Positions 1-5,176 of a DNA stretch of 5,176 nt are shown here, one piece after another. Below the pieces are notes generated by a model that worked only from the letters and a program-made list of their open reading frames with translations, made no database searches and was not told the origin of the DNA. The first letter of the stretch is position 1. Each line of letters starts with the position of its first letter. This DNA comes from Actinomycetes bacterium. GTDB lineage: Bacteria; Actinomycetota; Acidimicrobiia; Acidimicrobiales; Acidimicrobiaceae. The position numbers and the translations under genes were made by a program. The stretch covers positions 1 through 5,176 of the forward strand of contig JAJYFX010000174.1 of assembly GCA_021785315.1 (NCBI GenBank), in the 5' to 3' direction.

Positions 1-1887
1 GTGGATGCCAACGGCAATCCAGTTGCAAATGCCTCAGTTGCCCTCTGTCCCACCAATCCAGTGCTGCCGCTGCAGGGCTGTTCCACCGCCATAACCGATA
101 ACCAGGGCTATTACTCGATCGGCAGCCTGCCGCCGGGAAGCTACACAGGATCTGTAATAACCCTAATGGGGCCGATGACATTTGGCCCAGTTACAGTTAC
201 CAGCCAACGACAAACCGTCATTCCAATAAGCAAGATCAACAGTCTTGTACTGCCAATGCCATCAACCGTGTCTCTTACATCGGGAACGTTGCCGCCTCAG
301 ACAGCAACCACGACAAGCCAAAAGGGACTTCTACCAAACATCATTTCAACCGCGGTGACTACGGTTTCCAAATACAATTCTTGCCCTGACGCAAAGGGAG
401 CGACATTTACCGTATGGGCAACTGATGAAAACCCAAGTTCGCCGACCTATCAAAAACTGACGCAGGTGACGACTCAACCCATGACAGAAAATCCGGCAGG
501 TTCCGGCAACTACTCAGGGGCATTTGCACCACTTGACACGTTCCCAAACGGTCTATTCTTGAGCGGGGGCGGGCAGATCACCATCAACATACCGTGCCCC
601 TCAGGAACTCCGGAAAAGGCGGCATTCACAGTTTACATAGACCCATCAGGTATCGTAGTGAACCAGAACGGTGTGCCGCTGTCCGGAGCCGCTGTCACAC
701 TACTCAACTCTCCTACCGGTGCCCCAGGCACATACAATGTTGTACCCAACGGCAGTGCCGTGATGTCACCTGCCAACAGAACCAACCCTCAGATAACCGA
801 CTCCTCTGGAATCTTTGGATGGGACGTAATAGCGGGATATTATGAAATTTCCACAAGCCTGAGTGGCTGTACATCAACACCCCTGACGTTCCAGGTTCCG
901 CCATCCCTATCAAATGTCAGCATCACACTTAATTGTGCGGTATCAGGGCCTTCAAGTTTACCGTCAAACGATTTGCTACCGACAAATGTGACGGCAGAAG
1001 CGGGCAATGCCAGCGCAACAGTCACCTGGGACGCTCCGATCAACAACAATGGCAGCACTATAACCGGTTACAAAATAACCCCCTATATCGGGACTACGCC
1101 ACAGGCACCCCAGACATTCGACACCTCGGCGACTACCGAGACGGTGACCGGACTCACTAATGGAACCATCTACACATTCACGGTAGCCCCCATCAACTCA
1201 TCCGGTACAGGCTTACCGTCATATCCTTCCAATGCGATCATCCCATCGACCGTCCCTGGCGCACCAACAAATGTGACAGCCTCGCCAGGCAATACCAGCG
1301 CAACAATTGTTTGGGATGTTCCAATAAACAATGGTGGGTCCACGATTACTGCCTACATGATCACGCCATTTATAGGCAGTACACCACAAGCACCGCAGAT
1401 CTTCGATACACCGGCAACCGCAGATACCGTGATAGGACTAACCAATGGAACTACTTACACTTTCAAGGTCGCCGCGATTAACTCGGCCGGTACAGGACCA
1501 AACTCACAATCGTCCAACCCCGCCACTCCTGAAAACTCTTTGGGACCAGTTCCCCCGGGATCTGGAACCTCTGGAAGTGGACCAAGTGCGGTCGTCAAGA
1601 CGTCTGGTGGATCTGGATCCTCCGGAAGCTCAGGGGGGATTATTAGTGGAAATGCTGGTAGCGGGAGCCTGATATCGCCATCAATTGGCAGTAATGCCCT
1701 GGCAACTAGCCTCAGTTTCAATGTCAGCAACACCGCAAATGAAGTGGGAAACCTTACAGGCGGAAGTCTCTACACCTTCATCTGGTTCTTTGGTTGGCTT
1801 CTCATCTGCGTGATAAGCGGAAGATACTTCTTCTATAAGCGTCGTGACCTCAACTCGCCAAAACGCCTAAGGGTGGTCATCAAATAG
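1..1887 (+). CDS. Cell-surface protein with carboxypeptidase-regulatory-like and tandem fibronectin type III modules, C-terminal membrane anchor (5' partial)
   Basis: The reading frame is open to the first base, and no signal peptide precedes the mature-type sequence, so the true start lies upstream; the GTG at base 1 is probably internal. In order: residues 1-80 resemble a carboxypeptidase regulatory-like beta-sandwich (GNPV, then TDNQGYYSIGSLPPGSY). Residues 81-205 are an unassigned Thr/Ser/Pro-rich, beta-type stretch. Residues 210-310 are a second module of the same kind (GVPLSGAAVTLL, then DSSGIFGWDVIAGYY). Residues 327-421 and 422-516 are two fibronectin type III domains (SATVTWDAP, GLTNGT.YTF.V). 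Residues 517-575 are a Gly/Ser/Pro linker. Residues 589-607 form one hydrophobic helix, followed by a 21-residue Lys/Arg-rich tail. This predicts an exported protein held in the membrane by its C-terminus, with most of the chain outside. There is no LPXTG sorting motif. The role is unknown; adhesion or a structural surface function is inferred from domain type only. It lies 99 bases upstream of a signal peptidase homologue on the same strand. Confidence 0.85.
   Translation: MDANGNPVANASVALCPTNPVLPLQGCSTAITDNQGYYSIGSLPPGSYTGSVITLMGPMTFGPVTVTSQRQTVIPISKINSLVLPMPSTVSLTSGTLPPQTATTTSQKGLLPNIISTAVTTVSKYNSCPDAKGATFTVWATDENPSSPTYQKLTQVTTQPMTENPAGSGNYSGAFAPLDTFPNGLFLSGGGQITINIPCPSGTPEKAAFTVYIDPSGIVVNQNGVPLSGAAVTLLNSPTGAPGTYNVVPNGSAVMSPANRTNPQITDSSGIFGWDVIAGYYEISTSLSGCTSTPLTFQVPPSLSNVSITLNCAVSGPSSLPSNDLLPTNVTAEAGNASATVTWDAPINNNGSTITGYKITPYIGTTPQAPQTFDTSATTETVTGLTNGTIYTFTVAPINSSGTGLPSYPSNAIIPSTVPGAPTNVTASPGNTSATIVWDVPINNGGSTITAYMITPFIGSTPQAPQIFDTPATADTVIGLTNGTTYTFKVAAINSAGTGPNSQSSNPATPENSLGPVPPGSGTSGSGPSAVVKTSGGSGSSGSSGGIISGNAGSGSLISPSIGSNALATSLSFNVSNTANEVGNLTGGSLYTFIWFFGWLLICVISGRYFFYKRRDLNSPKRLRVVIK
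979..1548 (+). repeat. Tandem pair of 285-bp repeats encoding two fibronectin type III domains
   Basis: Two copies (979-1263 and 1264-1548) lie head to tail, exactly 285 bases or 95 codons apart. By eye about two thirds of the 95 residues are identical. Shared blocks include PTNVTA, PINN, GSTIT, TPQAPQ, GLTNGT and YTF. Stretches of DNA are also identical, such as ACAAATGTGAC at the start of each copy. This is the usual picture of recent duplication of a domain inside a modular surface protein. The copies stay in frame with each other and with the protein. Confidence 0.85.
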
Positions 1888-1952
1888 CACACATTGATGC
1901 TGATACGACCGGACACTTCCGATCAGGTTCCAATAGTCTCGTAGGCATGCCC

Positions 1953-1974
1953 TCGGAGCGCAAAGGTGCTCTGA
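1953..1974 (+). promoter_or_regulatory. Stable hairpin in the leader of the signal peptidase homologue
   Basis: Bases 1953-1961 pair with 1966-1974 to give nine consecutive base pairs, two of them G-U, closed by the four-base loop AAAG. The hairpin ends 12 bases before the ATG at 1987. No T-run follows on either strand, so it is not a standard intrinsic terminator. It may stabilise or mask the start region of the downstream gene, or mark an RNA processing point between the two + strand genes. The 8-base palindrome GGCATGCC (1944-1951) sits just before it. The pairing is visible in the sequence; the function is inference. Confidence 0.4.
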
Positions 1975-1986
1975 CCTGCCACGACG

Positions 1987-3417
1987 ATGACTCTATTGGG
2001 TGGTTGGCCTGAAATGGAACCAAGGCGCGACAAGATTCGAAGCAGAAAGCACCCTCGCAGGATTCTTGATTTTCTGTGGTTATTTCTTCCGACGATCACA
2101 CTCATCTCAGTTGCTGGATACCTCGTAGGTGCACTGGTTCTGAGGGTCAATCCGCCAGTATTGGCGATTCAGAGTCAAACTATGAGCCCCACCATCCGAC
2201 AGGGTGACCTGGCAATCCTGAAAAGCACCGAAGCCCGGCTTCTCAAGCCAGGAGACATCATAGCTATCAAGCTAACAGGTCAGGAGCAGTCTAAATACCA
2301 GCTCCCAAGTGAGATAATCCGTCGCATAGTCAAGATAACTCGCAGCAACAACACTGAACTCTTTCTGACTAAAGGCGACGGAAACCCGGCCAACGATCCC
2401 TTCTCTGTGAATCCATCGGCTGTTTCGGGCAAAGTAATTAAATCAATACCTTTTCTTGGCTTCCCAATTCTCTTCTTCTCCTCACAACAGGGAATCATCT
2501 TTCTCATCGCTTCAGCGATCATCCTCCTTATCTACTACATTCTCGGGTTCCTTGAGGATAGACGCCATTATGCTCATGCAACGGCCGCGACAATGCAGAA
2601 CGTACTCGAAATGGTGGGGTATGTCCATGATGCGGTGCAGGAGACCCAATCCATCTCCTTAGAGAGGCTTGCGTTCCCAGGAATCGAATTCCAGAAGGCG
2701 TCACGTCAGCTTCAAGCTTACGCAGAGGAACCTATCGCCGAGCCTGACAATCGACCATCCGAAACCCAGTCAAGCATTTCGAATCTGGATCTCACCCAAG
2801 TACGGGACGAACTGAAAAATATCCTCGGCCAAAGCATACAGCTCAGGCAAGCCGCAGACTGGATTTCAATGGGCGAGGTAGACTACGACAGCATCAGGGA
2901 GCTTCTAATGCAGTCGGTTCTTTCGATCCAAACATTGCTAGAGGCCATTCATGACCCTGAACTTCTGGTTGCTCTGGAACAGAGCAAATTGGCGGCGACC
3001 CCTTTACCATTGCCGATTGACGGACCTGCACCAAAAACTTTTCCCGAAATTTCCAATTTTCAAGTGCCACAGACACTTAAGGTCTCCAGAGACGCCATTT
3101 TGGCAGATCCCGAGACTGAGCTAATAGATCCAGGAATGAGTCCGCGTCAAGGTTTGACTGCAATGGCTGTTCAGACTGTCGCGCCGGGTAGTGAATCTAA
3201 TGATGAAATTGAAGCCACCAGGATCCAACTTCATCACGAAGATGCTCTTCTCGAAGATGACAACTTCGACATTTTTCAAAGCCAGGACGGCATTTTGGAA
3301 AATATAGACAATGTTTTCATTCAACAGGGAGCCACGCCAAATGAGGAGCCGGTGCAATCCCCACATGGTACAACCAATAAGCGCCACCGTAGAAGAAGTA
3401 TGCGCTGGCGGGACTGA
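1987..3417 (+). CDS. Type I signal peptidase (S26, SipW/Sec11-like) homologue with substituted catalytic residues and long C-terminal tail
   Basis: Residues 29-52 are a first membrane helix. They are followed by the family's active-site box (residues 63-74, SQTMSPTIRQGD), a beta-rich core (KPGDIIAIK, 87-95), the second box (EIIRRIVKI, 109-117) and TKGDGNPANDP (128-138). A second membrane helix lies at about 169-188. The order and spacing fit the archaeal/ER/SipW branch of signal peptidases, which cleave exported precursors outside the membrane. Two key positions differ. The nucleophile (Ser before Met in S-x-S-M-x-P) is Thr65, and the general base (His in that branch, Lys in classical bacterial enzymes) is Arg112. 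Asp131 and Asp137 remain. Residues 190-476 have no counterpart in the family, which is usually about 170-200 residues. This tail has helical segments to about 335, a Pro-rich stretch, an acidic part (about 402-445) and a basic end (KRHRRRSMRWRD). An in-frame stop (1972-1974) limits extension upstream. Neither ATG 1987 nor ATG 2014 has a strong Shine-Dalgarno; GGGTGG ten bases before 2014 makes Met10 a fair alternative start. Confidence 0.8.
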   Translation: MTLLGGWPEMEPRRDKIRSRKHPRRILDFLWLFLPTITLISVAGYLVGALVLRVNPPVLAIQSQTMSPTIRQGDLAILKSTEARLLKPGDIIAIKLTGQEQSKYQLPSEIIRRIVKITRSNNTELFLTKGDGNPANDPFSVNPSAVSGKVIKSIPFLGFPILFFSSQQGIIFLIASAIILLIYYILGFLEDRRHYAHATAATMQNVLEMVGYVHDAVQETQSISLERLAFPGIEFQKASRQLQAYAEEPIAEPDNRPSETQSSISNLDLTQVRDELKNILGQSIQLRQAADWISMGEVDYDSIRELLMQSVLSIQTLLEAIHDPELLVALEQSKLAATPLPLPIDGPAPKTFPEISNFQVPQTLKVSRDAILADPETELIDPGMSPRQGLTAMAVQTVAPGSESNDEIEATRIQLHHEDALLEDDNFDIFQSQDGILENIDNVFIQQGATPNEEPVQSPHGTTNKRHRRRSMRWRD

Positions 3418-3458
3418 CCTCACCGCATGTCAGGTCAACCTTGTTTATCTTTTTGAAA
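3415..3458 (+). terminator. Possible intrinsic terminator after the signal peptidase homologue
   Basis: TGACCT (3415-3420, which contains the stop codon) is an inverted repeat of AGGTCA (3432-3437), with an 11-base loop. A T-rich tract (TTGTTTATCTTTTT) starts four bases after the stem. The stem is short, the loop large and the tract interrupted, so this is only a plausible terminator for the + strand genes. Confidence 0.35.
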
Positions 3459-3710
3459 TTCGTCGGGACATTTACGGTCCAAATAGGCATTTCCAAAAAA
3501 TGTGGAGGTGCCACACATGCTTAATCTGGCTTCAGACACCTCATCAAGCCACCACGAGTGCACGTAGAAAGAAGATTTCGTGCGGCCTGAACCGAGCTAT
3601 TTATACTACGTTGGGATAGCTGTGATCCTATGGAACCGTCTCTCGTGGCCCCAACTCAAAGGAGAGGAAGGATTTTGCAAGTTAGGCGTCTCCACTTTCT
3701 TCTTCCCCAC
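3418..3710. other. Convergent intergenic region without a supported gene
   Basis: These 293 bases separate the stop codons of two converging genes. They hold the two terminator candidates described separately. They also contain a 5-bp hairpin GCACG/CGTGC (3560-3564 with 3579-3583) and a 6-bp inverted repeat GAGGTG (3505-3510) with CACCTC (3537-3542), which would compete with the - strand terminator stem. Open frames crossing the region have no recognisable protein features and no convincing start. Nothing resembling a tRNA or a mobile-element end was seen. Confidence 0.5.
3495..3515 (-). terminator. Intrinsic terminator for the - strand PIN gene
   Basis: Read on the - strand, TGTGG (3515-3511) and CCACA (3505-3501) form a perfect 5-bp stem with loop CACCT, directly followed by six Ts (3500-3495). 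This is the classic intrinsic terminator layout, though with a short stem. It lies about 195 bases after the stop at 3711 of the - strand gene. On the + strand the stem is not followed by Ts, so it would act only on - strand transcripts. Confidence 0.5.
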
Positions 3711-4148
3711 TTACCCATTTATGTCGATATTGCCAAGCTGCCACCGCCCGCGAGATGGGCTATAGAAGAATTCATTACTGCGAAGAGTTGATCGAACTGC
3801 ACTTTCTCCTTGCCCGACCCCCATATTTGGAAGTGCTTCGGAAAGTTCACGGGAAGATTGATGACCTCTGGAGCTACGAGCCAAGGTATATACGCAGGCT
3901 CGTGTCAACGTTGACCTGTTTCCAGTGGATGCCGCCAAGGATGCCCAAGATGGTATTTGCGCACTACCTTTTAGGAATCGATTGGAGTTCAGTTTTTGCT
4001 GCTCCATTGTCTCGCCGAAGGTATCGAGGATGGTCAAAAGGGACCTCTTAACTACAGCCCTAGTCTCAGGGGAAAGTTGTTTGATCACAAGATACCCGCC
4101 CACGGAAAGGACAGTGAGAATTAGCGGATGAAGATTTTTACCGCCCAT
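3711..4148 (-). CDS. Membrane helix plus winged-helix-like domain; out-of-frame continuation of the PIN gene or an overlapping small gene
   Basis: If translated alone from the ATG at 4148, this gives 145 residues and overlaps the PIN stop by 28 bases. It begins MGGKNLHPLILTVLSVGGYL, a hydrophobic segment of about 16-18 residues, then a basic helix (SPETRAVVKRSLL) and a polar linker. It ends in a domain of about 60 residues with the pattern VYTLARSS...SSRELSEALPNMGV...SAVRSTLRS...SPSRGRWQLG. The helix, turn, recognition-helix and GRGRW-like wing order resembles bacterial winged-helix modules; this is pattern recognition, not a proven match. No Shine-Dalgarno stands before ATG 4148, which favours this being the C-terminal half of the upstream PIN protein rather than an independent gene. 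The frame is open further upstream (to beyond 4259), but that part is antiparallel noise over PIN coding sequence. Confidence 0.5.
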   Translation of the reverse strand: MGGKNLHPLILTVLSVGGYLVIKQLSPETRAVVKRSLLTILDTFGETMEQQKLNSNRFLKGSAQIPSWASLAASTGNRSTLTRACVYTLARSSRGHQSSRELSEALPNMGVGQGESAVRSTLRSNEFFYSPSRGRWQLGNIDING

Positions 4149-4870
4149 TTGCCAACTGATACCGCGCTGGTTACAGCATACGAGGGCACTAGGACCATTC
4201 CCTGGATAATCCTGTCGAGCTCCGAGGCGTTGCCACCTGCCTGTAGCGTTTTCAACCACTCATAATGAAATTGTTGGTCGAACTTTGTTCCGTAGACTGC
4301 TTTTAGCGCTACATTGTCCTGAGTCAGGTAGAACGCTCCGAGAGCTAGTGAAAGGCATGCGGAAGGCACATCGTCAGGATCTTTGACTTTAAGGATACTA
4401 ATCCTCGTTCTCTCGTCGGCAGTGAGGAGATCTTCAAGAAGTTCGCACCGTTTGACTACCCGAACTAGAGGAAGGTATTGAGACTCCCACCTGGCGATGA
4501 ATTCTTGAATGCTAATTTGCTTGCTCTCAGCCCACACTGCCGCATGTTCATAAACCTCCTCAATGACATGCTCCGCACAGAACAATCGAAACGCCGCATT
4601 GTTCGCACCGTTTATGAGAACCGTGGGGCCCTTTTGCCTACAGGCTCGCGAGATGTCATTCTTGAGTACGTTGGCATCTGGCACGATTGGAGGGATTCCA
4701 TTTGGCCGCAGAAGGATATTGTAAGGCCACAAATCGCCATCAGCTTCGGGGAACTGAACGGCTTTAGTCGCGTTTTGGCGGTGCAGTACTCGTAAGGTTT
4801 GGTCAATCGGCGTGGATAACTGGGGCAGTCGTCGTGGCGTTTCGCTTGGGACTTCATCTGTCGGGCACAA
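4121..4870 (-). CDS. PIN-domain protein (putative ribonuclease), intact domain within a disrupted gene
   Basis: This is the open frame as it stands, 249 residues from TTG at 4870. Residues 1-55 are a polar lead-in. The PIN fold starts at about 60 with IPPIVPDANVL. The expected acidic metal ligands can be picked out: Asp65 in the PDAN motif, Glu104 or Glu105 in HVIEEV, Asp164/166/167 in KDPDDVP and Asp185 in LTQDN. All four positions typical of active PIN nucleases are therefore present. Residues 195-249 are helical and increasingly hydrophobic, ending in KWAVKIFIR just after the suspected frame change. The TTG start is forced by the in-frame TAG at 4885-4883 and has no Shine-Dalgarno. The better start, ATG 4933, lies on the other side of that TAG. 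No antitoxin gene of the VapB type lies beside it, and the extra domains are unlike VapC, so a toxin-antitoxin role is not supported. Confidence 0.65.
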   Translation of the reverse strand: MCPTDEVPSETPRRLPQLSTPIDQTLRVLHRQNATKAVQFPEADGDLWPYNILLRPNGIPPIVPDANVLKNDISRACRQKGPTVLINGANNAAFRLFCAEHVIEEVYEHAAVWAESKQISIQEFIARWESQYLPLVRVVKRCELLEDLLTADERTRISILKVKDPDDVPSACLSLALGAFYLTQDNVALKAVYGTKFDQQFHYEWLKTLQAGGNASELDRIIQGMVLVPSYAVTSAVSVGKWAVKIFIR

Positions 4871-4942
4871 GGGTTCGATGCTCTATGGATTGTGTGTTCG
4901 CAATTTTATGCACGCGCTAGGCTCGCCTTCCATCACAAAGTG

Positions 4943-4948
4943 CTCTCC
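4943..4948 (-). promoter_or_regulatory. Shine-Dalgarno sequence for the original start of the PIN gene
   Basis: On the - strand GGAGAG (within TAGGAGAG) stands nine bases before the ATG at 4933, which is in the same frame as the PIN domain. It is the only convincing ribosome binding site for this gene, and it decides that the gene originally began there rather than at the TTG at 4870 after the TAG. No clear -35/-10 pair was found between here and the nrdJ stop. Confidence 0.55.
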
Positions 4949-5076
4949 TATGTCTATTTTTGCCTCAGTCTGGCCGGTCTCAGGGGGACAATCATCTTAC
5001 CTACTTACGCCTCCTTCGTATTTCTCTTGAGCATCGTTCTGATCATCATTAGGGGACACTTGACCTTTACCCAGAC

Positions 5077-5176
5077 TTACGAACAGCCGCTTGTCGTACC
5101 GCAGGACGGACATACATAGCACGAACCGGCGCGCTGCATCTGATTGCCACATTGGTAACAATATGGAGCGTCTTTC
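5077..5176 (-). CDS. nrdJ: Vitamin B12-dependent (class II) ribonucleoside-diphosphate reductase, C-terminal end (partial)
   Basis: Read from the right edge on the - strand, the frame starting at base 5175 is open for 32 residues and stops at TAA 5079-5077. It contains DAPYC.QCG, then RAGSCYVCPSCGTTSGCS at the very end. The two spaced Cys pairs and the final SGCS match the Cys-rich tail that ends adenosylcobalamin-dependent ribonucleotide reductases of the NrdJ type. These enzymes make deoxyribonucleotides for DNA synthesis without needing oxygen; the tail Cys residues are thought to bind zinc and help re-reduce the active site. Only the tail is inside the window, so nothing can be said of the catalytic domain. 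The gene lies upstream of the disrupted PIN gene on the same strand, with 143 bases between its stop and ATG 4933 and no clear terminator between them. Confidence 0.85.
   Translation of the reverse strand, partial: KDAPYCYQCGNQMQRAGSCYVCPSCGTTSGCS

Follow-up and report, generated by a model that had tools for sequence, protein, structure and literature searches.

We analyzed a DNA stretch of 5,176 nucleotides (here referred to as the window) from an Actinomycetes bacterium of the Acidimicrobiaceae (assembly GCA_021785315.1, contig JAJYFX010000174.1, positions 1 to 5,176 of the forward strand). An open reading frame (ORF) at 1987-3417 (+) encodes a homologue of signal peptidase I in which both catalytic residues are replaced. 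It belongs to a real and conserved clade of predicted pseudo-signal peptidases of the Ser-His branch, here named clade A, and the support for a loss of catalysis in this clade is as good as sequence permits. By sequence the catalytic pair is lost, the remainder is under purifying selection, a giant-protein operon recurs around the gene and one genome holds a parallel operon with an active-type enzyme. With a probability of about 0.7 we regard the protein as a pseudo-signal peptidase derived from a duplicated SipW/SEC11-like operon, which would bind exported partners without cutting them.

The ORF of 476 amino acids contained no internal stop codon, in agreement with a preliminary description of the window. 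The real start is perhaps the ATG at 2014 (467 amino acids), since 12 of 16 close relatives begin at the Met10 column (alignment A1). Residue numbering nevertheless follows the 476-residue ORF throughout.

A profile of 20 relatives matched human SEC11A/C among the solved structures with E values of 4.7e-11 to 1.7e-10 (7p2p_A, 4.7e-11). The SEC11A profile alignment placed Thr65 (codon ACT, 2179-2181, +) on the catalytic Ser column and Arg112 (codon CGT, 2320-2322, +) on the column of the general base His (IVHR versus IVRR), which confirmed the replacements first noticed by eye. The protein search yielded 16 close relatives and a distant one, P0018. Together with the query, the close relatives (identities to it as low as 44%) make up the 17 proteins of clade A. 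Column 112 was Arg in all of them, and column 65 was occupied by Thr (5), Ala (6) or Ser (6). These counts exclude two fused domains described below and the copy of locus L022, whose S26 domain is identical to that of P0008 (Ala at 65, Arg at 112).

For comparison 69 canonical or outgroup rows were used, consisting of P0018, 65 relatives of the canonical paralogue at L024 and the paralogues at L023, L024 and L032, some of them near-copies. His was found at the base column in 69/69 rows and Ser in all 68 rows which hold the nucleophile column (P0019 is cut short). The window sequence does not represent an isolated mutation: among the 16 close relatives six had Ser at the nucleophile column and none had His or Lys at the base column. 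The two acidic active-site positions Asp131 (KGD) and Asp137 (2377-2397, +) were both retained in 17/17 proteins, and the pocket positions of the peptide groove remained hydrophobic in the sequence alignment. The earlier statement that the motifs around the active site are preserved thus holds for the acidic residues, but not fully for the nucleophile box. Here, canonical rows had Pro at column 60 (63/64) and Gly at column 63 (64/64), and the window protein has Ala and Ser.

The family assignment was consistent with these alignments. The Ser-His model TIGR02228 (NCBIfam, sigpep_I_arch) scored 80.3 bits with the window protein at a cut-off of 51.85. The Ser-Lys model TIGR02227 (LepB, S26A) reached 18.6 bits, below its cut-off of 47; together with Arg, not Lys, at the base column this places the protein outside S26A. 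Matches to Pfam PF10502 (S26) and PF00717 (S24) lay below their cut-offs. The signal-peptidase fold was present in an AlphaFold2 (AF2) model from an 83-row alignment, which was used for the fold only. An earlier AF2 model from a 20-row alignment had a predicted local distance difference test score (pLDDT) of 49 and served for helix positions only. The Ser/His pair marks family S26B according to PMC4376731. By descent and fold the window protein is a member of S26B, but judged by its predicted active site it is not a signal peptidase.

Codon comparisons between the window, L001 and L022 over residues 31-217 gave differences at the three codon positions of 37/11/121, 38/19/126 and 34/15/122 for the three pairs (187 codons). 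The rate of nonsynonymous substitution (dN) was 0.13-0.16 and the synonymous rate (dS) was too high to compute; for the S26 domain alone dN was 0.14-0.21, with dS again beyond computation. Synonymous change is thus saturated while dN is low, which indicates purifying selection on the clade A protein. Arg112 was encoded by CGT, CGG and CGC in the window, L001 and L022, and residue 65 by ACT, ACT and GCC. The initial view of a selected, non-canonical protein is borne out by this codon pattern and by the invariant Arg112. That the gene is decaying or contains a sequencing error would fit the loss of two catalytic residues. However, Arg was present in 17/17 sequences with identities as low as 44%, the codons are strongly constrained, and we give this explanation practically no weight.

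Conservation was unevenly distributed along the protein (all coordinates on the + strand). A first transmembrane segment (TM1, residues 31-53, 2077-2145), helical in both AF2 models and hydrophobic by eye, precedes the S26-type domain (residues 54-165, 2146-2481), which is extracytoplasmic if the topology of the Ser-His relatives applies. This domain had a mean pairwise identity of 0.73 in clade A, with 43 of 112 positions invariant. The second transmembrane segment (TM2, residues 166-189, 2482-2553; identity 0.86) was also helical in the models. It is followed by a cytosolic helix, EDRRHYAHATAATMQNVLEMVGYVHDAV (residues 190-217, 2554-2637), the most conserved of nine compared stretches, with an identity of 0.92 within clade A and 0.26 versus 64 canonical rows; AF2 confidence was low here (pLDDT about 54-63). 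A helical segment with the motif LRxAADWxxxG (residues 276-330, 2812-2976) leads to a variable tail (residues 331-460, identity 0.23) and a basic conserved C-terminus, the last 16 residues ending in KRHRRRSMRWRD (3367-3414, identity 0.64). Column 65 ranked 17th in variability among 161 columns; the neighbouring Met66 was invariant. These figures describe a protein which is constrained as a whole, but not at its nucleophile column, and most strongly in the clade-specific cytosolic helix.

In a tree of 88 S26 domains, from which P0019 was omitted, the 68 canonical or outgroup rows were split from clade A and the two fused domains by a branch with support of 100/100 and a length of 0.74. The exact position of the fused domains is unsure because their own branch is very long (3.43), and the long branches in general (P0018, P0082, P0083, L032 and both fusions) are loosely placed. 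When column 65 was omitted from a full-length tree of clade A, its Thr/Ala/Ser states needed six changes on that tree. Shuffled labels required 8.5 on average and reached six in 6 of 200 shuffles, so the states at column 65 are partly clustered. For Ala, three changes are required even if only the well-supported branches are considered. Arg is universal and Ser scattered, and the simplest order would therefore be that the base was lost once and first, and that the nucleophile varied later; alternatively, Ser could have been regained within clade A.

Directly upstream of the pseudo-peptidase gene the window contains an ORF at 1-1887 (+), cut at the window edge, which is the C-terminal part of a giant protein with carboxypeptidase-regulatory-like stretches and two Fn3 domains. 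These domains and a C-terminal transmembrane segment, seen by eye like the Ser/Gly linker before it and the short basic tail behind it, point to a surface protein. In L022 (68% identity over 628 amino acids) and in L001 (78% over the 27 amino acids on the contig) the clade A gene is likewise immediately preceded by this gene end, so all 3/3 loci containing that stretch share this arrangement. Within the family sample the upstream protein was matched in 5/42 genomes (G038, G039 and G040, weakly G012 and G021). No match was obtained in G001, where the contig begins 27 residues before the end of this protein, nor in G042, where the contig ends sooner. The giant gene of G038 included a piece of 2435 amino acids with 20 IPT/TIG stretches and two Fn3 domains, for which the carboxypeptidase-like family was absent from the listing, and continued past assembly gaps. 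Near its N-terminus, where the assembly has gaps, it showed long low-complexity repeats of three residues (L061:2567-2888 (-), L022:19522-19875).

A small exported-type protein, here named exp1', precedes the giant gene in G038 (L061:3662-4489). At a contig end of G042 lie an exp1' with 76% identity and the first part of the giant gene; the contig does not extend to the S26 gene. Genome G038 also carries a canonical locus (L023), in which exp1 and exp2 precede an S26 enzyme that has both Ser and His. This three-gene order with Ser/His enzymes was also present in G035 (L024), G619 (L067), G542 (L068) and, more distantly, G067 (L032). The exp1' protein shared 34% identity with exp1 of G035 and 36% with that of G038. 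By this likeness the clade A operon of exp1', giant protein and dead enzyme parallels that of exp1, exp2 and active-type enzyme, and the former presumably arose through duplication. Divergently upstream of exp1' in G038 and G042 lies an epimerase-like gene resembling UDP-sulfoquinovose synthase by eye (L061:5721-7070 (+), L066:1-464 (-)).

The putative cleavage site differed between both operon types. At the end of its hydrophobic stretch exp1 reads SFLA-NSG (G035, G038), SFLG-ATG (G619) or SFLG-STG (G542), and exp2 has Gly, Ala, Gly and Gly in the like position of the four canonical loci. The matching point of exp1' reads SYLR-TTG (G038) and SYLK-STA (G042). If cleavage occurred there, the P1 residue, taken from the position of the motif, would be small in 8/8 precursors of the four canonical loci and basic in 2/2 clade A-type precursors.

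Taken together, these data suggest that in a small group of uncultured bacteria the clade A protein was kept by selection beside a giant surface protein and now holds partners instead of cutting them. A SipW/SEC11-like operon of the Ser-His type would have been duplicated. The catalytic His of one copy would have changed to Arg and become fixed, with the nucleophile left to vary among Ser, Thr and Ala. The hydrophobic peptide groove, if retained, may bind the small exported partner, the giant protein or both at their N-terminal signal (or signal anchor), leaving them uncut, and thereby tether them at the membrane. We infer binding without cutting because the groove pattern and the operon were kept and the exp1' site was changed. 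As Arg112 is fixed it probably has a structural role, bracing the dead site by a salt bridge with Asp137/Asp131 or by backbone contacts. The nearly invariant helix behind TM2 probably recruits a cytosolic partner, and the protein could thus couple surface-protein export or matrix assembly to the cytosol. Of the pseudo-peptidase with a binding or scaffolding role initially proposed, the loss of catalysis is well founded (Arg112 in 17/17, Ala in 6/17, purifying selection and a Ser/His paralogue in the parallel operon of one genome); the binding itself is our inference.

Several observations weigh against this reading. The invariant Asp131 and Asp137 are also expected of an active enzyme, and the six clade A members with Ser may, as far as that residue alone is concerned, be active. 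Fold scores versus SipA and E. coli signal peptidase were tied within 1 Z and hence do not single out a pseudo-enzyme. The complete operon is visible at no clade A locus free of assembly gaps. The basic P1 residue is known from two loci of the clade A type (G038 and G042), and the contig of the latter ends before the S26 gene is reached. Locus L032, a fifth one of the canonical type, was excluded from the P1 count; its exp1 shows Gln at the aligned position, preceded by Ala (its exp2 reads SFFG-SGS by eye). Further small residues in exp1' (GPA in G038, STA in G042, by eye) could suit a LepB-type enzyme, and LepB was present in 6/6 genomes checked. Neither the three exp proteins of L023/L024 plus exp1' matched a Pfam family, nor the four exp proteins of L023/L024 an NCBIfam family, so that the label "substrate" follows from position.

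An active peptidase with Thr65 (or Ser) as nucleophile and Arg112 or another residue as base would account for the conserved acidic residues and groove pattern and for Ser in 6/17 proteins, and Thr serves as nucleophile in other hydrolase families. Arginine, however, is ill suited as a general base given its usual pKa. Moreover, Ala occupied the nucleophile column in 6/17 proteins with six changes of state, and the archaeal enzymes are reported to need both Ser and His by mutagenesis (PMC2913515). We consider such activity very improbable. The unusual Thr-based mechanism raised in the preliminary description was dropped on the evidence of the Ala-carrying members, because Thr is only one of three residues at column 65 and Ala is incapable of the nucleophilic role.

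It is also rather unlikely that the S26 domain is a leftover membrane anchor and that the selected function, for example regulation or recruitment, resides in the cytosolic helix and the C-terminal region. Residues 190-217 did exceed the S26 domain in conservation (0.92 versus 0.73), the last 16 residues are conserved behind a variable tail, and the peptidase activity of Bacillus subtilis SipW has been reported as unnecessary for solid-surface biofilms (PMC5817204, citing Terra et al. 2012), a peptidase-independent role to which this could be compared. But a mere anchor hardly explains the strong purifying selection on the S26 domain (dN 0.14-0.21, dS beyond computation), its 43/112 invariant positions and the kept groove pattern. 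We give similarly little credence to a non-catalytic partner or decoy which modulates an active S26 paralogue or LepB, for instance in a substrate-presenting heteromer. Such a partner would fit G038, where an active-type S26 enzyme and a clade A protein are both encoded, and some pseudoenzymes are described as regulators of their active cousins (PMC11266112). In G001, however, matches to the Ser-His model were limited to the clade A protein and, below the cut-off, a LepB-type enzyme; the active paralogue may therefore be absent from this incomplete metagenome-assembled genome (MAG).

Besides the pseudo-signal peptidase encoded as a separate protein, a related domain was found fused to another enzyme. 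G039 and G040 encode proteins of 918-919 amino acids (L025:2425-5181 (-) and L026:441-3200 (+)), whose N-terminal domain matched the clade A profile with E values of 6.0e-21 and 1.9e-15. A second profile match fell in the LRxAADW region (2.8e-7 in G039, 1.8e-4 in G040). All four catalytic positions of the fused S26 domains were lost according to the alignment. The proteins continue as a cellulose-synthase-like glycosyltransferase, with Pfam Cellulose_synt above its cut-off and TIGR03030 at 328.5 and 326.3 bits, below the equivalog cut-off of 699.1. A PilZ-like motif pair was seen by eye near the C-terminus; a Pfam PilZ match was not listed. The following gene joins GH26 to Fn3 in both genomes, and this Fn3 is approximately 40% identical to that of the upstream protein in the window. 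A search of the order sample with the N-terminal part yielded no further fusion, G039 and G040 evidently being outside this sample.

Tentatively, and with doubt prevailing, a protease and its substrate might have become a receptor and its ligand. In a duplicated SipW-like operon the base and then the nucleophile would have been lost, a basic residue would have appeared at the former cleavage site of exp1', the giant protein would have replaced the second substrate, and the dead domain would in addition front a cellulose-synthase-like enzyme. Non-cutting domains could in this way couple matrix protein and polysaccharide at the cell surface.

Clade A shares with the SipW/archaeal/SEC11-type enzymes (S26B) the sequence model, the fold, the order of TM1, S26 domain and TM2, the position of the SxxM box and the KGD...D region, and its canonical paralogues sit behind exported proteins. 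Of the conserved Asp residues both are described as essential in yeast and one in archaea (PMC2913515). Clade A departs from these enzymes by Arg in place of His (17/17) and by Thr, Ala or Ser at the nucleophile column. Its cytosolic region is long and includes a conserved helix of its own, and its operon contains a giant surface protein. The nearest operon-level parallel is SipW of B. subtilis and B. cereus with TasA and CalY, as described in PMC4292775, where one S26 enzyme acts on two exported proteins, as the canonical three-gene loci suggest. In contrast, the scanned exp1 and exp2 proteins match no TasA or camelysin family, the clade A enzyme is predicted to be dead and the giant surface protein takes the second place.

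The pseudo-signal peptidase known from the literature surveyed, SipA of streptococcal pili, belongs to the Ser-Lys branch. SipA of Streptococcus pyogenes is reported to lack Ser and Lys (Asp48, Gly85), to keep its cleft, to have no peptidase activity and to be required for pilus polymerisation (PMC4049620; PDB 4n31). It resembles clade A in its signal peptidase fold, the lost catalytic pair and a tie to surface-protein assembly, which for clade A is proposed; the hydrophobic pocket positions of clade A may correspond to a retained groove as well. However, SipA replaces a Ser-Lys pair and serves sortase pili. Clade A, with its Arg, stems from the Ser-His branch instead, since the Ser-His model scores, the Ser-Lys model does not and the sister rows are Ser-His. 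Sortase gave one match each in G001, G038 and G042, never on the contig of an S26 locus. A further precedent is the C-terminal domain of the phage 186 repressor CI (LexA/signal-peptidase-like superfamily), in which Glu96 is described as equivalent to lambda CI Ser115 and Arg152 at the base position makes a backbone contact (PMC12984324). Arg112 may make a similar contact.

Among the matches listed by one open-access library, judged by titles and the starts of abstracts, we recognised none that deals with a pseudo-signal peptidase of the Ser-His type or with a fusion of a signal-peptidase domain to cellulose synthase. The Ser-His branch offers a graded series from active-type enzymes (Ser/His) via a clade with lost base and varying nucleophile to a fused domain with four positions gone, and active-type and dead forms sit in parallel operons of one genome (G038). 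With this series one can ask directly by which route a protease turns into a scaffold, and whether the substrate changes along with the enzyme. P0007, the L001 protein, comes from a MAG named Acidimicrobiaceae bacterium, and its automatic label "signal peptidase I" probably misstates its function.

Full-length clade A matches were restricted to G001 and G038 in the samples of the family (42 genomes) and of the order (397), and to G001 in that of the class (395). As the latter two samples are even draws from larger groups, they do not demonstrate absence. A profile search of the protein database, limited in scoring to the 7998 candidates with the most words in common, added no members. A search for related loci found one locus in genome contigs, none in viral contigs and one record in the plasmid collection, a match of 33% to a Haladaptatus protein annotated as signal peptidase I. 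These collections thus gave no indication that the gene resides on plasmids or in viruses.

A second C-terminal fragment of a clade A protein was located in the same MAG as L001 (L027:25-327, G001:C26) and reflects either two copies or a mixed bin. The next large ORF on its contig (L027:1628-4417) looks like the class II ribonucleotide reductase which adjoins the clade A gene of G038 (L022:5000-7864, Pfam-confirmed there). A DivIVA-like gene follows the canonical S26 gene in L024 (L024:2039-2770 (-)), and a precomputed DivIVA domain (PF05103) was present in five canonical S26 proteins (P0040, P0050, P0053, P0062 and P0076), hinting at a placement of the canonical signal peptidase at poles or septa. 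Downstream of the pseudo-peptidase gene the window contains an ORF of 249 amino acids (4121-4870, -), which matched Pfam PIN_2 with 24.6 bits at a cut-off of 22.4.
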